Source: Natrinema salinisoli
GTDB taxonomy: Archaea > Halobacteriota > Halobacteria > Halobacteriales > Natrialbaceae
DNA: 64,000 bases
Assembly (NCBI RefSeq): GCF_020405205.1
Contig: NZ_CP084469.1
Location: 3,782,001-3,846,000 of the forward strand
Direction of reading: 5' to 3'
Both the position numbers and the translations under genes were made by a program. Shown here piece after piece: positions 6,949 through 51,713 of the stretch. The notes under the pieces were generated by a model that did no database searches, had not been told where the DNA came from, and worked only from the letters and a program-made list of their open reading frames with translations. The first letter of the stretch is position 1. The number at the start of each line of letters is the position of its first letter.

Positions 6949-7812
6949 ATGAGCCAATCTCCGGCGCTCCCGGACGAGACTCGCCCCGGTCGGAGCGCGC
7001 TTCGCGTCGCCGACGCCGCGGCGACGATCGACTTCTATCGCGACGTCGTCGGCCTCCGCGTCCGGAATCGAGACGGGACGAGAGTGACACTCGGCACCGG
7101 CGAGCGACCGCTTCTCGTGTTGCTCGTGGATCCGACCGCCGAGCCGCGCGACGAGCGGGAGACCGGACTCTACCACAACGCGTTCAGGGTCCCCTCCCGC
7201 GGGGCGCTGGGGGCCGCACTCGAGCGCGTTCGCGAGGAGTGGACGCTCGACGGCGCTTCCGATCACGGCGTCAGCGAGGCGCTGTACTGTACCGACCCCG
7301 AGGGAAACGGCGTCGAGATCTACCGCGACCGACCCCGAGACGCGTGGCCGCGCACCGACGATGGCTCCGTTCGCGCGGCCGGCGCGCCGCTCGACCTCGA
7401 GGCGCTCGCGGCTGCGGCCGACGACGGGGCGGGCTCGAACGGCTCGCAACTGGCACCCGACGAAACGACGCTCGGTCATATCCACCTCGAGGTGTCCTCG
7501 CTCGACGCGGCCCGATCGTTCTACGCGGAGCGGCTGGGATTCGACGTGTCGATGTCGTTCGCGCCCGGCGTGTGCTTTTTCGCGGCGGGGGGCTACCACC
7601 ACCACATCGGGGTGAACACGTGGAACCAGCGGTCGACGCCGGGCGACGGACTGGGACTGGCGTGGGTCGAATTCGTCGTTCCGGACGCGGACGCGATCGA
7701 TGCGATCCGAGAGCGCTTCGACGACGGTGTCGCGTCGGTCACCGCGATCGACGGCGGCATCGAGATCACGGATCCGGACGGCATCCGGATTCGAATGCGG
7801 CCGGCGGAGTGA
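6949..7812 (+). CDS. VOC superfamily protein with two tandem domains (catechol 2,3-dioxygenase-like)
   Basis: A 287-residue protein with two glyoxalase/bleomycin-resistance/dioxygenase-fold domains, about residues 15-130 (RSALRVADAAATIDFYRDVV ... CTDPEGNGVEIYRDRP) and about 165-285 (GHIHLEVSSLDAARSFYAERLGF ... ITDPDGIRIRMRP). Candidate metal ligands include His in GHIHLEV and the HHHIGVNTW cluster. It resembles CatE-type ring-cleavage dioxygenases of Bacillus and haloarchaea. The substrate cannot be read from sequence. It is a monocistronic-looking gene between orc1/cdc6 and the RadA-like/PolB2 operon. Confidence 0.85.
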   Translation: MSQSPALPDETRPGRSALRVADAAATIDFYRDVVGLRVRNRDGTRVTLGTGERPLLVLLVDPTAEPRDERETGLYHNAFRVPSRGALGAALERVREEWTLDGASDHGVSEALYCTDPEGNGVEIYRDRPRDAWPRTDDGSVRAAGAPLDLEALAAAADDGAGSNGSQLAPDETTLGHIHLEVSSLDAARSFYAERLGFDVSMSFAPGVCFFAAGGYHHHIGVNTWNQRSTPGDGLGLAWVEFVVPDADAIDAIRERFDDGVASVTAIDGGIEITDPDGIRIRMRPAE

Positions 7813-7960
7813 CCGCAGGGACGGTTTCGGAATCGGTATCGGAAACGCGACTTTCCTTCGAAGAAGCGATCTCCGCGCTTATTTCGGCGCTCGAGCGACT
7901 TTCGGAACTGTCGGAACCCGGCGTCCGTCGCTTATGCCCCGCTGGCTCGAGGCCTCGTGT

Positions 7961-8653
7961 ATGCACCAGTTCGAACTCGAGTCCGGGATCACGCTGTTGA
8001 ACGTCCCGTCGCCGCGATCGGGGATCGTCCACCGGCTGGTCTGTGATCGGTTGGCCGACTGCGAGAGGGGAGACGGATCGGCCTACTGGATCGACGCGCG
8101 ATCGGCGGCGTCGACCCACGCACTGTACGACTGTGCCTCGAGCCCGCGCGTACTCGAGGACTTGCGGATCGCGCGAGCGTTCACCGCGTACCAGCACCAC
8201 TCGCTGGTCCGAGCCGTCGCTCGGCGGGCGGACCCGTCGACGAGCCTCCTCGTCGCACCCAACGTCGCGGCTCTCTACCGGGACGACGACCTCGCGGCGT
8301 GGGAGCGCGAGGACCTGTTGGCCGCGAGTCTCGAGACGCTCTCGGAACTGGGACGGGTGCTCGACTGTCCCGTCCTCGTGACGCGCGCCGGCGGTGCCGA
8401 TGACGCTGCGACCGGCTCCGGGCCGGTTTCCGAGTACGCCGACACCGCGATCGACTGCGTTCGGACGCGCGAAGGGCTCCGACTCGAGCCGGCGGGCGAG
8501 GAGGCGGACGCGGCGAGCGCGACGGCGGGGTACTGGCACGGCAGCCAGTGGCAGACGACGATCCCCTACTGGGTCGAGCTCTGTGGCGCCGTCGACGCGG
8601 TCGATCCCGTCGTCGCCGCCCACGATCGGGGCCTGCTCGAGGTGAGCGGCTGA
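7961..8653 (+). CDS. RadA/RecA-fold paralogue lacking Walker A and Walker B
   Basis: A 230-residue protein starting MHQFELESGITLLNVPSPRS. It aligns along its length with the RadA core: GITLLNVPSPRSGIVHRLVCD stands where RadA has the P-loop but has no GKT/S; YWIDARSA matches the IDTE strand; IARAFTAYQHHSLV matches the ARAYN-DHQ segment; LLVAPNVAALYRD occupies the Walker B strand but has APN instead of VD-S; and LDCPVLVTRAGG matches the VVVTNQV strand. It is therefore a RadA relative that should not bind or hydrolyse ATP. The gene overlaps the next by one base (TGATG). In archaea, similar ATPase-dead RecA paralogues accompany PolB2; the role is probably as a repair adaptor. Confidence 0.8.
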   Translation: MHQFELESGITLLNVPSPRSGIVHRLVCDRLADCERGDGSAYWIDARSAASTHALYDCASSPRVLEDLRIARAFTAYQHHSLVRAVARRADPSTSLLVAPNVAALYRDDDLAAWEREDLLAASLETLSELGRVLDCPVLVTRAGGADDAATGSGPVSEYADTAIDCVRTREGLRLEPAGEEADAASATAGYWHGSQWQTTIPYWVELCGAVDAVDPVVAAHDRGLLEVSG

Positions 8654-42042: not shown

Positions 42043-42374
42043 CGTAAGTCCCTCCAGTTGCCGCCGACTGCATCGACCCCATCGTGTGACGGCTGCAAAT
42101 AGCGACGTGATCGTTTCACGCTGCTAGGATCACCCGCTCGATACGTCGCACGGTCACGCGTTCCGTCGATCACTCGTCGGCCGTATCATGGTAATAACTA
42201 GCATACTGTGGCGAGATCGTGACAACCGTTCGTTGAGAGACGATTGTCGCCCGAGAATCGGTGCGAAGTGAGGACGAGATCGAACGGAATCCGTCCGTTC
42301 GATCGAACGTCGGCGATCGTCTCGGTAGTCTACCAGTAACTGCGTCGTCTCGAGGGTCCGTTAGGGTGGCAGAG
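42043..42374. other. Intergenic region (332 bases) with a strong stem-loop
   Basis: Contains no supportable ORF. It holds the upstream region of the copper protein gene (A/T-rich ATCATGGTAATAACTAGC near 42187-42204) and a perfect 11-bp hairpin at 42278-42304 downstream of the cyclase gene. Confidence 0.6.
42278..42304. terminator. Perfect 11-bp stem-loop downstream of the cyclase gene
   Basis: GATCGAACGGA (42278-42288) pairs with TCCGTTCGATC (42294-42304) around a 5-base loop, about 70 bases after the cyclase stop codon. No T-run follows on the minus strand, so it may stabilise the mRNA end or be a protein-binding palindrome rather than a terminator. Confidence 0.45.
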
Positions 42375-43016
42375 TCATTCCATATTACTGACTCCGACGG
42401 CCCGCACCGGCGCGCCGTCGCTCGCGAGCGCCAGCGGATACGCCCGGAGTTCGAACCGGTCCCCGACGGCCCCGAGGTTCGTCAGGTTCTCGAGGATCAG
42501 CAGGTCGTTGCCGAGCAGCGCGTGGTGGACCTGAAACCCCTCGGGCTCGTCGTCGGTGGCGTTCTCCGTCGGGGTCGGATCGGGGTTGAGCGCGTCCACT
42601 GCGACGTCGAATCCCCGCTCGACGCACGCCTCGGCGGCGGCCGACGAGAGGTACGGATGATCGAGATACCGCTCGGTTTCCCAGTGGTCGTCCCAGCCAG
42701 TCCAGGGGGCCACGAGATCGACGTCGACGTCCGGAATCCGCTCGGCCGGAATCGGTTCCCGAGCGCCGAGATCGCGACAGTCGACGCGAACTGCATCGAA
42801 GACGAACCGGTCGACGGGGTAGGACTCGAGGGTCTTCCCGTTCGGCTCCGTGTGTGCGGGCGCGTCGACGTGGGTGCCGGTGTGGCTCCCGCACTCGAGG
42901 GCGTCGACGCGGACGCCGTGTTCCTCGTGGCCCGCGTGCTGGCGGACGACGACGGCTGGATCGTCGGGATAGGTTTGCATCCCGGTCCGGATTCGGTGAC
43001 TCAGATCGACGTGCAT
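42375..43016 (-). CDS. Cyclase family protein (kynurenine formamidase-like metal hydrolase)
   Basis: A 213-residue protein starting MHVDLSHRIRTGMQTYPDDP. The family signature GSHTGTHVDAPAHTEPNGKT (H-x-G-T-H-x-D metal ligands, about residues 44-54) is intact, with DDHWETERYLDHPYLSSAAAE and VHHALLGNDLLILENLTNL near the C-terminus. It hydrolyses an amide or ester, with a divalent metal at the active site. The substrate cannot be inferred; kynurenine, isatin or polyketide-type substrates are known for relatives. Divergent from the symporter operon. Confidence 0.85.
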   Translation of the reverse strand: MHVDLSHRIRTGMQTYPDDPAVVVRQHAGHEEHGVRVDALECGSHTGTHVDAPAHTEPNGKTLESYPVDRFVFDAVRVDCRDLGAREPIPAERIPDVDVDLVAPWTGWDDHWETERYLDHPYLSSAAAEACVERGFDVAVDALNPDPTPTENATDDEPEGFQVHHALLGNDLLILENLTNLGAVGDRFELRAYPLALASDGAPVRAVGVSNME

Positions 43017-43105: not shown

Positions 43106-43180
43106 ATGTGGCAACCTATTACCACCCATGGGACGGACCCGCCTGACCGGTTCGTCCTCGAGGTGATCGGCGATGAGTAG
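43106..43180 (+). CDS. 24-residue leader ORF overlapping the symporter gene
   Basis: MWQPITTHGTDPPDRFVLEV followed by IGDE and a TAG that overlaps the symporter start (ATGAGTAG). Its ATG is about 30 nt from the TATA box, so on a leaderless mRNA it would be the first translated ORF, with the symporter translated by reinitiation. It may be a true small protein or a regulatory leader. Confidence 0.5.
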   Translation: MWQPITTHGTDPPDRFVLEVIGDE

Positions 43181-44747
43181 TCCCGGTATCGGCTACGCGC
43201 TACTCGGCGCGTGGGCGGTCGCGATGGTCGGATTGAGTTACCTCATTTTCCGACGGCAACACGTCGACGACACGAGGGAGTTCATCACGGCCGGCGGGCG
43301 CGCACAGGTCGGCCTGACGACCGCGTCGTTCGCCGTGACGTGGATGTGGGCGGGGGACATCCTCGGCGTTCCCGAGTACGTCGGACTCACCGGTGTCGCG
43401 GGGATCTGGATGTACGCGGCCCCGGCCGTTCTCTCCTCGCTGATCGTCATTCCCTTCGCACTCCGGATGCGTCGACTCTTCCCGCAGGGGCTGACCTACA
43501 GCGAGTACTTCATCGAGCGGTTCGACAAACGAGCCCACGTCGCCGTGATCTTCGTCATTCTGTACACGATGATCCTCGGCGGCGTCATCCAGCTGTACGT
43601 CGGCGGGACCGTCATCGGCGGGCTGACGGGGATCGACCCGAACGTCGTGATGGCGATCCTGATGGGGACGATCGGGATTTACATCCTGCTCGGCGGGCTC
43701 TGGGGGTCGATGACCACGGACCTCGTCCAGTTCGTCAGCGCGATCATCCTGACCGTCGTCTTCGTTCCGCTGTTGCTGTTCGAGGCGGGCGGCCCGACGG
43801 GGGTGTACGAGGGAATGATCGAGAACCTCGGCGAGAACGCCGACCCGTTCCTGACGGCGTCGAACCTCAACTGGATCGAGGACCTGTTCCTGCCGTACGC
43901 GCTCGGTCTCGGCGTCTGGGGCGTCGTCTCGCTGTCGACGTGGCAGCGCATCTTCGCCGTGCGCCGCGACAAGACGTCCCGATTCCTCACTGCCGGCGGA
44001 ATCGGCGTCTTCACGACGATCGCGATGTACGGCGTCATCGGGCTCGTCGGTCTCGCTGCGTTCCCCGAGGTCGCACCGGGGAACCTCTCGATCGAAGCGC
44101 TCGGTCTTTTGCCCGGCTGGGCGACGATCCTCTTCCTGGTAATCGCACTGATGGTTCTGGGTTCGTCCGTCGACTCCTACCTGACCGCCATCGCGAGCCT
44201 CACGTCGCGGGACATCTACTACCGTCACCTCGCGACCGACGCCTCGGACGAGGATCAGCTCCGGGTCGCTCGAGTCGCGTCGCTCGGTTTCGCAGTCATT
44301 ATCTTCGGCGCGACGGTGTTCGCACTCGATACGTTCGGGTTCATCCAGTTGCTGCTCATCGGCGGCATCGGCGCGACGGCCCTCGTGGGTCCGTTCGCGC
44401 TGTCGCTGTTCTGGACGGGCACCTCGAGTGAGGGCTTCATCGCCGGCGTCGTCGGGTCGCAGCTGGTGACGGCCTACTTGCTGGCGGCGAATTACGGTTT
44501 CGTCGTCACGGAACCGTCACTGAAACTCTGGGAGATCATGGCCGTCGGCCACCTCCTCGCGACCGCGCTGGCCGTGGTCGTCTCGGCGATCTCCCCGGAC
44601 GAGTTCGAGTTCGACTCGATCGCGCGCGAGCCGACGACCGGACCCGCGACCGACGCGGAATCGGCCGCGCGAACCGATGGAGGTACGGCGAGCGAAGCGA
44701 GCCGTGCCACGGGAGAACACGGTTCTGCCGGAGGTGAAGATCGATGA
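43173..44747 (+). CDS. Sodium:solute symporter (SSS family)
   Basis: A 524-residue protein starting MSSPGIGYALLGAWAVAMVG, with about 13 membrane helices and SSS-family features: FITAGGRAQVGLTTASFAVTWMWAGDILGVPEYVG, LTYSEYFIERFDKRAHV, GGLWGSMTTDLVQFVSA, SLSTWQRIFAVRRDKTSR and LGSSVDSYLTAIASLTSRDIYYR (in pieces). The C-terminus is polar and acidic. It imports an organic solute with Na+; the substrate is unknown, but the sequence is closer to the pantothenate/proline-type branch. Followed by a small membrane protein with 4-base overlap. Confidence 0.9.
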   Translation: MSSPGIGYALLGAWAVAMVGLSYLIFRRQHVDDTREFITAGGRAQVGLTTASFAVTWMWAGDILGVPEYVGLTGVAGIWMYAAPAVLSSLIVIPFALRMRRLFPQGLTYSEYFIERFDKRAHVAVIFVILYTMILGGVIQLYVGGTVIGGLTGIDPNVVMAILMGTIGIYILLGGLWGSMTTDLVQFVSAIILTVVFVPLLLFEAGGPTGVYEGMIENLGENADPFLTASNLNWIEDLFLPYALGLGVWGVVSLSTWQRIFAVRRDKTSRFLTAGGIGVFTTIAMYGVIGLVGLAAFPEVAPGNLSIEALGLLPGWATILFLVIALMVLGSSVDSYLTAIASLTSRDIYYRHLATDASDEDQLRVARVASLGFAVIIFGATVFALDTFGFIQLLLIGGIGATALVGPFALSLFWTGTSSEGFIAGVVGSQLVTAYLLAANYGFVVTEPSLKLWEIMAVGHLLATALAVVVSAISPDEFEFDSIAREPTTGPATDAESAARTDGGTASEASRATGEHGSAGGEDR

Positions 44748-45046: not shown

Positions 45047-46012
45047 TCAGAGCCGTCGGCGTGCGGTCGGCACCGGTTCGAACTCGCCGCGCGGACGGAT
45101 TCCGGCGAGCGATTCCCACTCGGTTCCCAGCCCGTGTTCGGAGAGGAGGGAAATCGCGGTTTCGCTCGCTCCGACGTACGTGAGCGACGCGAAGTCCCAG
45201 CTGGGATTGCCGGCGGGAAACGGCCCCGACTCGCGCGGCCGACGGAGGTCGATCGCGCCGCCGATCGCGTCGCGGGTCGCCGCAGCGAGGTCCCGCCCTT
45301 CCTCGAAGCGCGTGAGCGGAAACTCCCGGTTGTCCACGATGAACACGCCGGTCTCGCCGTCGAGGTAGCGTTCGACGTCGGTCCGCCCCGCCTCGACGAG
45401 CAGGCTGATGACGTCCATCGTCGCGTCCTCGCCGCTGATCGCGTCGATATATCGCTTGATCTCGCCGTCGTACTCGACCAGTCCCGCCGTGATCAGCCGC
45501 GAGTCGATCCCGTGGGAGAGCAAGACGCCGTCCAGCGAGATGCTCGAGGGGAAGGCCAGCTCGATCCCGTCGCCCGGATCACCGGTCGCGGAAACGAGGA
45601 TCGGGCCGAGGCCCGACTCGTGAAGCGCTTCGAGGCGGTCGAAGGCCGGTTCGATCGCGTCGTCGCGGAGCCGTACCGTCCCGACGACCAGTTCGCCGAC
45701 GTCATCGGTCGGATCGTACGTGACCCGGCTCGTCAGGGTGGCGATTTGCTCGCGGACGCTCTCGAGACGGCCGCTGACGTCGCCCCGTCGGAGTTCGTTT
45801 CGGCCCCGATCGGTCAGTTTACGTCCCTTTCCGGCGACCTTCTCCGTCAGTCCGGCCTCGTCGAGATCGGACAGCATGAGTCGGATCGTCCGACCCTTGA
45901 TCGAGTAGCCGTGTCGTTGCATCTGCTCGACGAGTCGGATACTCCCGATCGGCTCGTGTTCGCCGATCAGGCGTAACAGATCGTAGGTGCGCCGGTCGTC
46001 GTTCGGGACCAT
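45047..46012 (-). CDS. nrpR: NrpR-type nitrogen regulator (HTH plus NRD domain)
   Basis: A 321-residue protein starting MVPNDDRRTYDLLRLIGEHE. The N-terminal winged helix, about 5-75 (IGSIRLVEQMQRHGYSIKGRTIRLMLSDLDEAGLTEKVAGKGRKLTDRG, in pieces), matches the NrpR DNA-binding domain. Residues about 95-315 match one NrpR regulatory domain (VGTVRLRDDAIEPAFDRL, GIELAFPSSISLDGVLLSHGI, DVERYLDGETGVFIVDNREFPLTRF). In methanogens NrpR represses nitrogen genes and is released by 2-oxoglutarate. Divergent from an aminotransferase-agmatinase operon, with a consensus NrpR site between them. Confidence 0.88.
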   Translation of the reverse strand: MVPNDDRRTYDLLRLIGEHEPIGSIRLVEQMQRHGYSIKGRTIRLMLSDLDEAGLTEKVAGKGRKLTDRGRNELRRGDVSGRLESVREQIATLTSRVTYDPTDDVGELVVGTVRLRDDAIEPAFDRLEALHESGLGPILVSATGDPGDGIELAFPSSISLDGVLLSHGIDSRLITAGLVEYDGEIKRYIDAISGEDATMDVISLLVEAGRTDVERYLDGETGVFIVDNREFPLTRFEEGRDLAAATRDAIGGAIDLRRPRESGPFPAGNPSWDFASLTYVGASETAISLLSEHGLGTEWESLAGIRPRGEFEPVPTARRRL

Positions 46013-46087
46013 CCGTTCGATCGTTTCCCTCCCCCGATAAAAATCCCTGTCGACCCTCCGCCGCGGTCGTCGCTCCCAGGAACAGGT

Positions 46088-46101
46088 GGAAGAATTGTTC
46101 C
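46088..46101. promoter_or_regulatory. NrpR-type operator GGAA-N6-TTCC
   Basis: GGAA GAATTG TTCC exactly matches the operator consensus established for methanogen NrpR (GGAA-N6-TTCC). It lies in the 243-base divergent region, 76 bases upstream of nrpR and about 155 bases upstream of the aminotransferase start, so it may control either or both. Confidence 0.7.
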
Positions 46102-46181
46102 GCATATGCTGTGGTCGTCGACCGGGGCGAAGTCCGGTCGGGTCGCCGTTGTCGTCGTAATTTGACCGCGTGGCGAATTTC

Positions 46182-46204
46182 GAGACCTCAAAGCTTTTGG
46201 TCTC
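46182..46204. promoter_or_regulatory. Second palindrome in the nrpR-aminotransferase promoter region
   Basis: GAGACC (46182-46187) and GGTCTC (46199-46204) flank TCAAAGCTTTT, whose centre AAAGCTTT is itself palindromic. It is about 52-74 bases before the aminotransferase ATG. It could be an operator for another regulator or a structure in the 5' UTR. An AAGGAGGTG Shine-Dalgarno-like stretch at 46214-46222 is 34 bases from the ATG, too far to act on it directly. Confidence 0.45.
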
Positions 46205-46255
46205 GTCATCGTAAGGAGGTGGCAAGGGTGGCATACTACTGCCACGCAATCTCCC

Positions 46256-47596
46256 ATGGCACGCCAGACAGACACGACCGTAACGAACGACGGGATCACC
46301 GACCAGTACGAGGAGTACCTGATGCCGATCTGGAAGGACCTGCACGTCCCCGTCCAGCGGGCGTCGGGCTGTACGCTCGAGGACTTCGAGGGCAACGAGT
46401 ACCTCGATCTCTTCTCGGGGATCGCCGTCACGAACGTGGGCCACGGCGACGACGCCGTCGTCGAGGCCGCGAAGGACCAGCTCGACGAGTTCGTCCACGG
46501 CTGTACGTACGTCCATCCCCAGGGACCGGCCGCGGAGCTCGCCGAACGACTCGCCGAGGTTACGCCCGGCGACCTGCAGAAAACGTTCTTCTGTAACTCC
46601 GGGACCGAATCCGTCGAGGGTGCGATCAAACTCGCCCGGAAGTACACCGGCTCGAAGGAAGTCATCGCGCTCGAAATGGGATTCCACGGCCGTACCCTCG
46701 GTTCGCTCGCGCTCACCGGCAACAAGGCGTACAAGGCCGACATGGCCCCGACGATCAACGACGTCGCGCACACGCCCGCGCCTTACCGCTACCGCTCTCC
46801 GTACCGGGACGCCGACGACGAAACGTTCGTCGAACAGACGACGGCCGACCTCGAGCGCGTGATCGGCACGCACACCGCGGACGATCTGGCGGCGATCGTC
46901 GTCGAGCCCGTAATGGGTGAAGGCGGGATCATCGTGCCACCGACGGGCTACCTGCAGCGACTCAAAGAGATCGCGCACGACCACGGCGCGCTTCTGATCG
47001 CCGACGAGGTCCAGTCCGGCTACGGCCGGACGGGCGAACTGTTCGCCAGCGAGCACTACGACGCCGTTCCGGACATCCTCACGCAGGCCAAGGGGATCGC
47101 GAACGGCCTCCCGCTCGGCGCGTTCACCGCCCCGGCCGAGATCGCGGACGCCTTCGATTCCGGCGACCACCTCTCGACGTTCGGCGGCAACCCCGTCGCC
47201 TGCGCCGCCGCGCTGGCCACGATCGATCGCCTCGAGGACGAGATCACCGCAAACGCCCGCGAGCAGGGCGCGTGGCTCAGCGACGAACTGGCCGCGCTCG
47301 AGGCCGACTACGACGTCGTCGGCGAGGCGCGCGGGATCGGGTTGATGCAGGGACTCGAGTTCGTCGACCCCAGCGGGGGGACCGGACCGGCCGGCATCGC
47401 GCCCGAACCGGACGCCGAGTTCGCGAAACACGTCGGGAGCCACCTCCGCGAGCAGGGGATCGTCGCGGGCGTCGGCGGCTACTACAAGAACGTCCTGCGG
47501 CTGCAGCCGCCGCTCTCGATCGACCGCGAGCAACTCGAGCGGGGCGTGTCCGGTATTCGCGACGCGATCGACGCCGAACTGGAGGCGAGTCGATGA
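46256..47596 (+). CDS. Class-III PLP-dependent aminotransferase
   Basis: A 446-residue protein. LDLFSGIAVTNVGHGDDAVV, FFCNSGTESVEGAIKLARKY, LEMGFHGRTLGSLALTGNK, VVEPVMGEGGIIVPP, LLIADEVQSGYGRTGELFA and the PLP-lysine segment ILTQAKGIANGLPLGAF are all present. Closest in type to 4-aminobutyrate, ornithine or alanine-glyoxylate aminotransferases. Its overlap with agmatinase suggests a role in putrescine or arginine breakdown, moving amino groups to 2-oxoglutarate or pyruvate. First gene of a two-gene operon behind the NrpR-type site. Confidence 0.9.
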   Translation: MARQTDTTVTNDGITDQYEEYLMPIWKDLHVPVQRASGCTLEDFEGNEYLDLFSGIAVTNVGHGDDAVVEAAKDQLDEFVHGCTYVHPQGPAAELAERLAEVTPGDLQKTFFCNSGTESVEGAIKLARKYTGSKEVIALEMGFHGRTLGSLALTGNKAYKADMAPTINDVAHTPAPYRYRSPYRDADDETFVEQTTADLERVIGTHTADDLAAIVVEPVMGEGGIIVPPTGYLQRLKEIAHDHGALLIADEVQSGYGRTGELFASEHYDAVPDILTQAKGIANGLPLGAFTAPAEIADAFDSGDHLSTFGGNPVACAAALATIDRLEDEITANAREQGAWLSDELAALEADYDVVGEARGIGLMQGLEFVDPSGGTGPAGIAPEPDAEFAKHVGSHLREQGIVAGVGGYYKNVLRLQPPLSIDREQLERGVSGIRDAIDAELEASR

Positions 47597-48606
47597 CGGG
47601 AGACGGCCGGAGCCCCGCGGCGGCGTTCCGCGAGTCGACGCCCGGCAGCGAGGTCGAACTCGCCTACGCCGGCTTCGACACGTTCCTCAAGAGCGACCCC
47701 ACCGACGTCGAGGACGTCGCGGGCGCGGACGCCGCGGTGCTGGGCGCTCCCTACGACGGCTCCGTGAGCAATCGACCGGGCGCGCGCTACGGTCCGCGTG
47801 CCGTCCGCCGTGCCAGCGGCTGGCTCGCCTACCTCTCGGGCTACAAGGGCGGACTGACGAACATGCGGACGGGCAAGCAGGTCGACTTCAGCTCCCTCGA
47901 CGTCGTCGACTGCGGCGACGTGCCGGTGTTTCCGACGGACCTCGAGACGACCGCCGAATCGATCACGGCCCACGTCGCGACGGTGGCCGAACAGGGCGTC
48001 ATGCCGGTCTTCATCGGCGGCGATCACTACTGTACGTTCCCCGCGTTCCGCGGCTTCGCGGAAGGGTCGGAGCACGAGACCGTCGGGCTGGTCCAGATTG
48101 ACGCCCACACCGACACCGCAGCCGAAAGTCCGGTTTTCGGCGAACACTTCCACGGCTCGCCGACCCACCACATCTCGGAGTCGCCCCACACTGACTTCGA
48201 ACACGTCGCGCAGGTCGGCATCCGCGGCTACGAGTCGCCCGAGTTCTTCGAGTTCGCCGAGGAGACCGGCCTCGGGCTGTACACCATTCGCGACGTCGAA
48301 GAGCGCGGCGTTCGAGACGTCGTGGGGGACGCCATCGAGCACGCCGCGGCCGAGACCGACGCCGTCTACGTCACCTTCGACATCGACTCGGTCGACCCTT
48401 CGGTCGCCCCCGGCACCGGCACGCCGGAACCCGGCGGCCTCTCGGCCTCACAGGCGCTGGCCGTCGTCGAAACGCTCGGCGCACATCCCGCCGTCGGGGC
48501 CGCCGACCTGATGGAGGTCGCGCCGCCGTACGACCCCACCGACGAGACGGCGAACCTCGCCGCCTATCTGCTGACGACGCTGCTCGAGCGCCAGTTCGCC
48601 GAATAA
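47593..48606 (+). CDS. speB: Agmatinase / ureohydrolase family protein
   Basis: A 337-residue protein starting MTGDGRSPAAAFRESTPGSE. The manganese-site motifs are intact: FIGGDHYCTFPAF (GGDH), VQIDAHTDTAAESPVFGEHFHG (D-A-H-x-D) and FDIDSVDPSVAPGTGTPEPGG. VLGAPYDGSVSNRPGARYGPRAVR is the agmatinase-type N-terminal block. It releases urea from agmatine or a guanidino acid, giving putrescine or a related amine. Overlaps the aminotransferase by four bases (ATGA). Confidence 0.92.
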   Translation: MTGDGRSPAAAFRESTPGSEVELAYAGFDTFLKSDPTDVEDVAGADAAVLGAPYDGSVSNRPGARYGPRAVRRASGWLAYLSGYKGGLTNMRTGKQVDFSSLDVVDCGDVPVFPTDLETTAESITAHVATVAEQGVMPVFIGGDHYCTFPAFRGFAEGSEHETVGLVQIDAHTDTAAESPVFGEHFHGSPTHHISESPHTDFEHVAQVGIRGYESPEFFEFAEETGLGLYTIRDVEERGVRDVVGDAIEHAAAETDAVYVTFDIDSVDPSVAPGTGTPEPGGLSASQALAVVETLGAHPAVGAADLMEVAPPYDPTDETANLAAYLLTTLLERQFAE

Positions 48607-51197: not shown

Positions 51198-51713
51198 ATG
51201 GTCGACGACCCACTGGACAATCTCGACCGCCGGATCCTGCATCTCCTCCATCTAGACGCGCGCGGTGCGAGCGATACGGACATCGCCACGGAAACCGACG
51301 TCACCGGGACGACGGTTCACAATCGGATCAAGGAACTGGAGGAACAGGGAATCATTATCGGGTACAATCCGGAAATCGATTACGAGGCGGCGGGGTATCC
51401 GATGCGCGTCCTCTTCATCTGCTCGACGGACCTGTCCGATCGATCGAAGATGGCGGAGCAGGCTCTCGGCGTACGGGGGGTGGTCAACGTCCGAGAGATG
51501 CTGGCCGGCGAGGAGAACCTCCACGTCGAAGTCGTGGCCGAAGCGACCTCCGACGTCAAGGAAAGCACCGAACAGCTACACGACCTGGGGTTGCGGATCG
51601 TGAGCAGCGATATCCTGGCGGAGGAACACGTCCAGCCGTGGAATCACTTCCACCAGGAGGTCGCCGGCGAGGACGCCGAATCACCCACCGATATCGGCGA
51701 GTCCGAAGAGTAG
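51198..51713 (+). CDS. Lrp/AsnC family transcriptional regulator
   Basis: A 171-residue protein starting MVDDPLDNLDRRILHLLHLD. HTH (DTDIATETDVTGTTVHNRIKELEEQGIIIGY, in pieces) then the RAM domain (MRVLFICSTDLSDRSKMAEQ ... LGLRIVSSDILAEEHVQPWNHF). Paralogue of the regulator at 19775-20248 in length, HTH and C-terminal tail. Its ligand and regulon are unknown. Monocistronic. Confidence 0.9.
   Translation: MVDDPLDNLDRRILHLLHLDARGASDTDIATETDVTGTTVHNRIKELEEQGIIIGYNPEIDYEAAGYPMRVLFICSTDLSDRSKMAEQALGVRGVVNVREMLAGEENLHVEVVAEATSDVKESTEQLHDLGLRIVSSDILAEEHVQPWNHFHQEVAGEDAESPTDIGESEE

Follow-up and report, generated by a model that had tools for sequence, protein, structure and literature searches.

The closest described relatives of the system considered here are the NrpR regulators of methanogens. 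In M. mazei, NrpRI is a single HTH protein with one NRD domain. For M. maripaludis NrpR, the operator GGAAN6TTCC and the regulon have been published, and nif carries two operators according to the title of a reference cited in the same paper (PMC2723118). The known inducer of NrpR is 2-oxoglutarate (PMC4902934). A study of Haloferax volcanii states that the master regulator NrpR is not conserved in haloarchaea (PMC6801745), and our literature search found no paper joining NrpR with agmatinase. Here we describe a 64-kb stretch of the haloarchaeon Natrinema salinisoli (hereafter the window), in which an NrpR-like protein is, on comparison of sequences, quite probably the local regulator of a guanidino/polyamine module, acting via GGTGG(C/A)A-N6-T(G/T)CCACC with a GGAA-N6-TTCC site, O1, as an accessory.

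The window protein shares with M. maripaludis NrpR the combination of an HTH and an NRD domain, an inverted repeat with N6 spacing, a GGMA half-site and a second operator in the promoter region. Unlike that protein, it has one NRD domain only, its half-site is extended (mostly GGTGGCA), and its predicted targets belong to a guanidino/polyamine catabolic module instead of nif, glnA, and amt. Its architecture is like that of M. mazei NrpRI, but the window genome lacks the NRD-only NrpRII partner: a search of the whole genome returned one PF01995 match and no second NRD protein or NrpRII. HTH_12 and NRD1_2 both exceed the Pfam gathering score (PF01995, 66.5 bits; PF08461, 44.2 bits), with one NRD match in the chain. 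An AlphaFold model (mean pLDDT 86.9) matched the M. jannaschii NRD structure 3NEK in Foldseek (E 1e-13, TM 0.81 of target), as well as a winged-helix DNA-binding domain. A preliminary description of the locus had called the protein an NrpR homologue, and the domain and fold matches support this. PF01995 scores are about 30–100 bits for haloarchaeal proteins versus about 300 for methanogens, and the haloarchaeal protein is a divergent relative of methanogen NrpR. A sample of 292 genomes of the class yielded PF01995 in 24, and homologues of the NrpR-like protein occur in 20 of 101 genomes of the family. A contig search with this protein as single query found three loci; the N. salsiterrestre protein is 98% identical to it, and a segment of N. 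ejinorense is 87% identical to the window locus.

A gap of 243 bp parts nrpR, on the minus strand, from an aminotransferase–agmatinase pair (46256–48606) on the plus strand (Table 1). The agmatinase-family protein scores only just over the TIGR01230 cut-off and its substrate is uncertain, guanidinobutyrase being an alternative assignment. No specific NCBIfam family was matched over its cut-off by the aminotransferases, the nitrilase, or the transporters of these modules. The gene pairing recurs, with nrpR beside agmatinase-family genes in Natrinema, Natrononativus, Haladaptatus, Halomarina, and further genomes of several families. Aminotransferase genes of class III or class I are usual in such neighborhoods as well, and transport is represented in one of two ways: by a sodium:solute symporter, or by an ABC transporter of the spermidine/putrescine-like type accompanied by a nitrilase-family gene.

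Table 1. Features of the nrpR locus, in window coordinates.
Feature	Position	Strand	Remarks
O4, GGTGGCAGAGTCATTCCATA	42365–42384		Operator-like by matrix; overlaps cyclase stop codon
Cyclase/arylformamidase-like protein	42375–43016	-	PF04199; divergent from symporter across O3
O3, TGTGGCA-ACCTAT-TACCACC	43107–43126		Symporter promoter, between symporter and divergent cyclase-family gene
Sodium:solute symporter	43173–44747	+	PF00474; putative regulon member by O3
NrpR-like regulator	45047–46012	-	321 aa; winged helix (HTH_12) and one NRD domain
O1, GGTGGAA-GAATTG-TTCCGCA	46085–46104		nrpR side of the gap
O2, main operator, GGTGGCA-TACTAC-TGCCACG	46227–46246		9 nt before aminotransferase ATG
Class III aminotransferase	46256–47596	+	PF00202, 387 bits
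Agmatinase-family ureohydrolase	47593–48606	+	PF00491; TIGR01230 agmatinase 180.7 bits (cut-off 174.3)

The main operator emerged from a discovery set of 35 promoter regions taken from other genera, with the window clade left out. In an unbiased dyad search the commonest exact dyad was GGCA-N6-TGCC, found in 15 of the 35 promoters; across 100 random sets, no dyad was present in more than 4. These GGCA half-sites, with the N6 spacing of NrpR, lie within a full conserved site, GGTGGCA-N6-TGCCACC, in which GGAA/TTCC or TACC halves occur occasionally. In module promoters the site is found approximately 20–35 bp after a TATA-like box and often runs into the ATG, such that it presumably covers the transcription start of the first genes of the module. 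A weight matrix trained without three close Natrinema loci and then run over the window returned O3 (20.7 bits) and O2 (19.6 bits) as its top two matches; the best of 200 random windows reached 18.2. O2 stands about 30 nt after a TATA-like GCTTTTGG (46193–46200), and orthologous aminotransferase promoters beside nrpR carry an O2-type site. O3 is likewise conserved, both in other Natrinema and in other families. Among loci outside the training set (other haloarchaeal families and further Natrinema), most module-first promoters score 12–28. The aminotransferase promoters of two nrpR-bearing loci, L173 and L177, score low and carry CCGGAA-N6-TTCCGG or GGAA-type sites.

Two further operator-like sequences lie within genes or at their ends. 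O4 is conserved in other Natrinema, and its position in L174 and L175, which belong to another family, is immediately ahead of an aldehyde ferredoxin oxidoreductase-like gene; because the same place is a promoter in that family, the window copy is probably a relic. An operator-like palindrome at 46922–46941, in the aminotransferase coding sequence (GGIIVPP codons), is also present in L169 and L170 and probably reflects coding constraint.

Comparison across genomes establishes, besides the operator and its place, a dependence on the presence of nrpR. Agmatinase orthologues from seven nrpR-less genomes (61–80% identity to the nearest reference), albeit a small set, score at most 2.4 and are without the motif, suggesting that the operator follows the regulator. 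The link between protein and motif is one of co-occurrence, and further regulators are encoded nearby, such as an Lrp-like gene at 51198 within the window, so the palindromes could in principle belong to another regulator with NrpR a mere neighbor. We regard this as highly improbable, given that the motif tracks nrpR presence, that no other regulator constantly adjoins the module in annotated plasmid regions, and that in its N6 spacing and GGMA half-site the motif is similar to the operator published for NrpR (PMC2723118). Counts of a looser 16-base pattern, GTGGMA-N6-TKCC, across 101 genomes failed to separate those with nrpR from those without.

The preliminary description had placed the NrpR-type operator of the aminotransferase–agmatinase operon at GGAAGAATTGTTCC (46088–46101), within the 243-bp gap. 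The site is where it was said to be, reads GGAA-GAATTG-TTCC, and is the sole GGAAN6TTCC in the window. N6 palindromes do stand at the adjacent promoters, but a main-operator role is not supported for the GGAA site and falls to O2, and the two strong copies O2 and O3 had been missed; the earlier interpretation is thus supported in part. As a bare pattern the palindrome proves nothing: chance predicts 0.93 matches per 64 kb, 57 of 100 shuffles contain one or more, and the 4.7-Mb genome has 79. The reversed pattern occurs 15 times, an imbalance due at least in part to dinucleotide content, as window shuffles yield about 0.9 per 64 kb. Because both of its half-sites are GGAA, O1 scores only 8.1 with the matrix derived from other genera, which is chance level.

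These figures, together with the absence of O1 from L176 and L180, which have the same gene order, and from the short-gap arrangement, would fit a reading in which O1 is a chance palindrome and O2 and O3 alone matter. Conservation makes this reading unlikely. The N. ejinorense copy retains the half-sites GGTGGAA..TTCCG around a different spacer, CTTAAT in place of GAATTG. Of nine genomes that share the gene arrangement, seven have a perfect GGMA-N6-T(not C)CC at a distance of 141–145 bp from the main operator, the chance of such a match being 0.00056 per genome for a 7-position slot. The seven genomes (four Natrinema and three of another family) are related and do not represent seven independent events. 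GGAA-N6-TTCC occurs as O1 here and also in some relatives, but it is GGTGGCA-N6-TGCCACC that dominates among the conserved operators. On the strength of half-sites and spacing kept in two families, O1 is probably an accessory operator, a weaker third copy. It lies 142 bp from O2 and about 40 bp upstream of the TATA-like TTTTTATC (46037–46044) that precedes nrpR, whose transcript is probably leaderless, and this position makes nrpR autoregulation through O1 possible.

Classic sequences also take the main position in some relatives. The start-proximal operator of L172, L174, and L175 is itself GGTGGAA-N6-TTCCATA, and GGAA-N6-TTCC-type sites precede aminotransferase–nrpR operons in L034, L167, L171, L173, and L177, indicating that the haloarchaeal NrpR family also accommodates the classic sequence. 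These start-proximal canonical sites, the NRD domain and M. jannaschii-like fold, the shared N6 spacing, the known response of NrpR to 2-oxoglutarate (PMC4902934), and the paired operators indicated for M. maripaludis nif by the reference title cited in PMC2723118 are what one would expect if a true NrpR senses 2-oxoglutarate, acts through GGAA-N6-TTCC to subject polyamine use to global nitrogen control, and regulates its own gene. Several observations render this doubtful. First, neither a GGAA-type nor a GGCA-type motif stands at the glnA and amt loci of the window genome, two of each. Second, there is no genome-wide excess of sites, as the extended site with up to 2 mismatches occurs 44 times versus 45 for the reversed control. 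Third, the genome encodes a single NRD protein and no NrpRII, and the master NrpR is stated not to be conserved in haloarchaea (PMC6801745). The earlier proposal that NrpR control had been extended here from glutamine synthetase and nitrogen control is, in view of the first two of these results, not supported. Further near-operator sites of the genome (L063, L065, and L067) stand at unrelated genes, and we claim no wider regulon; the downstream SDR and deaminase genes, which have no motif, were also left out. O1, O2, and O3 cluster within 5 kb. With glnA and amt devoid of the motif, a single NRD protein, and no excess of sites, the regulon looks local and pathway-specific instead of an extension of global nitrogen control.

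For this local regulator, we infer a mechanism of binding, repression, and induction as follows. The controlled module would comprise the symporter, the aminotransferase, and the agmatinase-family enzyme, serving guanidino/polyamine catabolism. An NrpR-like dimer would bind the GGTGG(C/A)A-N6-T(G/T)CCACC palindromes just downstream of the TATA box, and from its place over the transcription start would block initiation until an inducer, bound by the NRD domain, relieved the block. O1, on the nrpR side, may add cooperativity or mild autoregulation. The protein most likely acts as a repressor, which the operator's predicted place over the start fits, activation being an alternative. Given how local the regulon looks, the inducer is no less likely to be a pathway metabolite than 2-oxoglutarate. 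Like other pathway-specific local repressors, the regulator has a gene that adjoins its targets, an operator that would lie over the transcription start, and a motif that is lost with it; in contrast to them, it is built from the NrpR family, otherwise that of a global nitrogen regulator.

Many haloarchaeal module loci contain two nrpR genes. Both carry an HTH, which sets them apart from the NrpRI/NrpRII pair of M. mazei, and the paralogues could form heterodimers or respond to two inducers. At L034, L036, L040–L042, L044, L047, L058, L167, and L177, two NrpR paralogues in facing orientation enclose the genes of a nitrilase and a spermidine/putrescine-like ABC transporter. The class I/III aminotransferases of two-nrpR modules, as at 7300–8469 and 17133–18536 of L058, resemble GntC and GntE of guanidino-arginine chemistry below NCBIfam cut-offs, which raises the possibility of an unusual guanidino compound as substrate.

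A broader proposal, whose chances we judge to be evenly balanced, is that in haloarchaea a global sensor of 2-oxoglutarate, NrpR, has been turned into a family of pathway-specific regulators responding to guanidino/polyamine metabolites, with the operator GGTGGCA-N6-TGCCACC and often two paralogues per catabolic island. NrpR is regarded as the nitrogen master regulator of euryarchaea and as not conserved in haloarchaea. If the proposal is true, a conserved, diverged branch of the family, recognizing an operator of its own and acting on local targets, would illustrate the turn from global regulator to pathway switch, and it would offer a testable regulon, with operator, targets, and nrpR-less controls, in a group whose nitrogen regulation is poorly understood.
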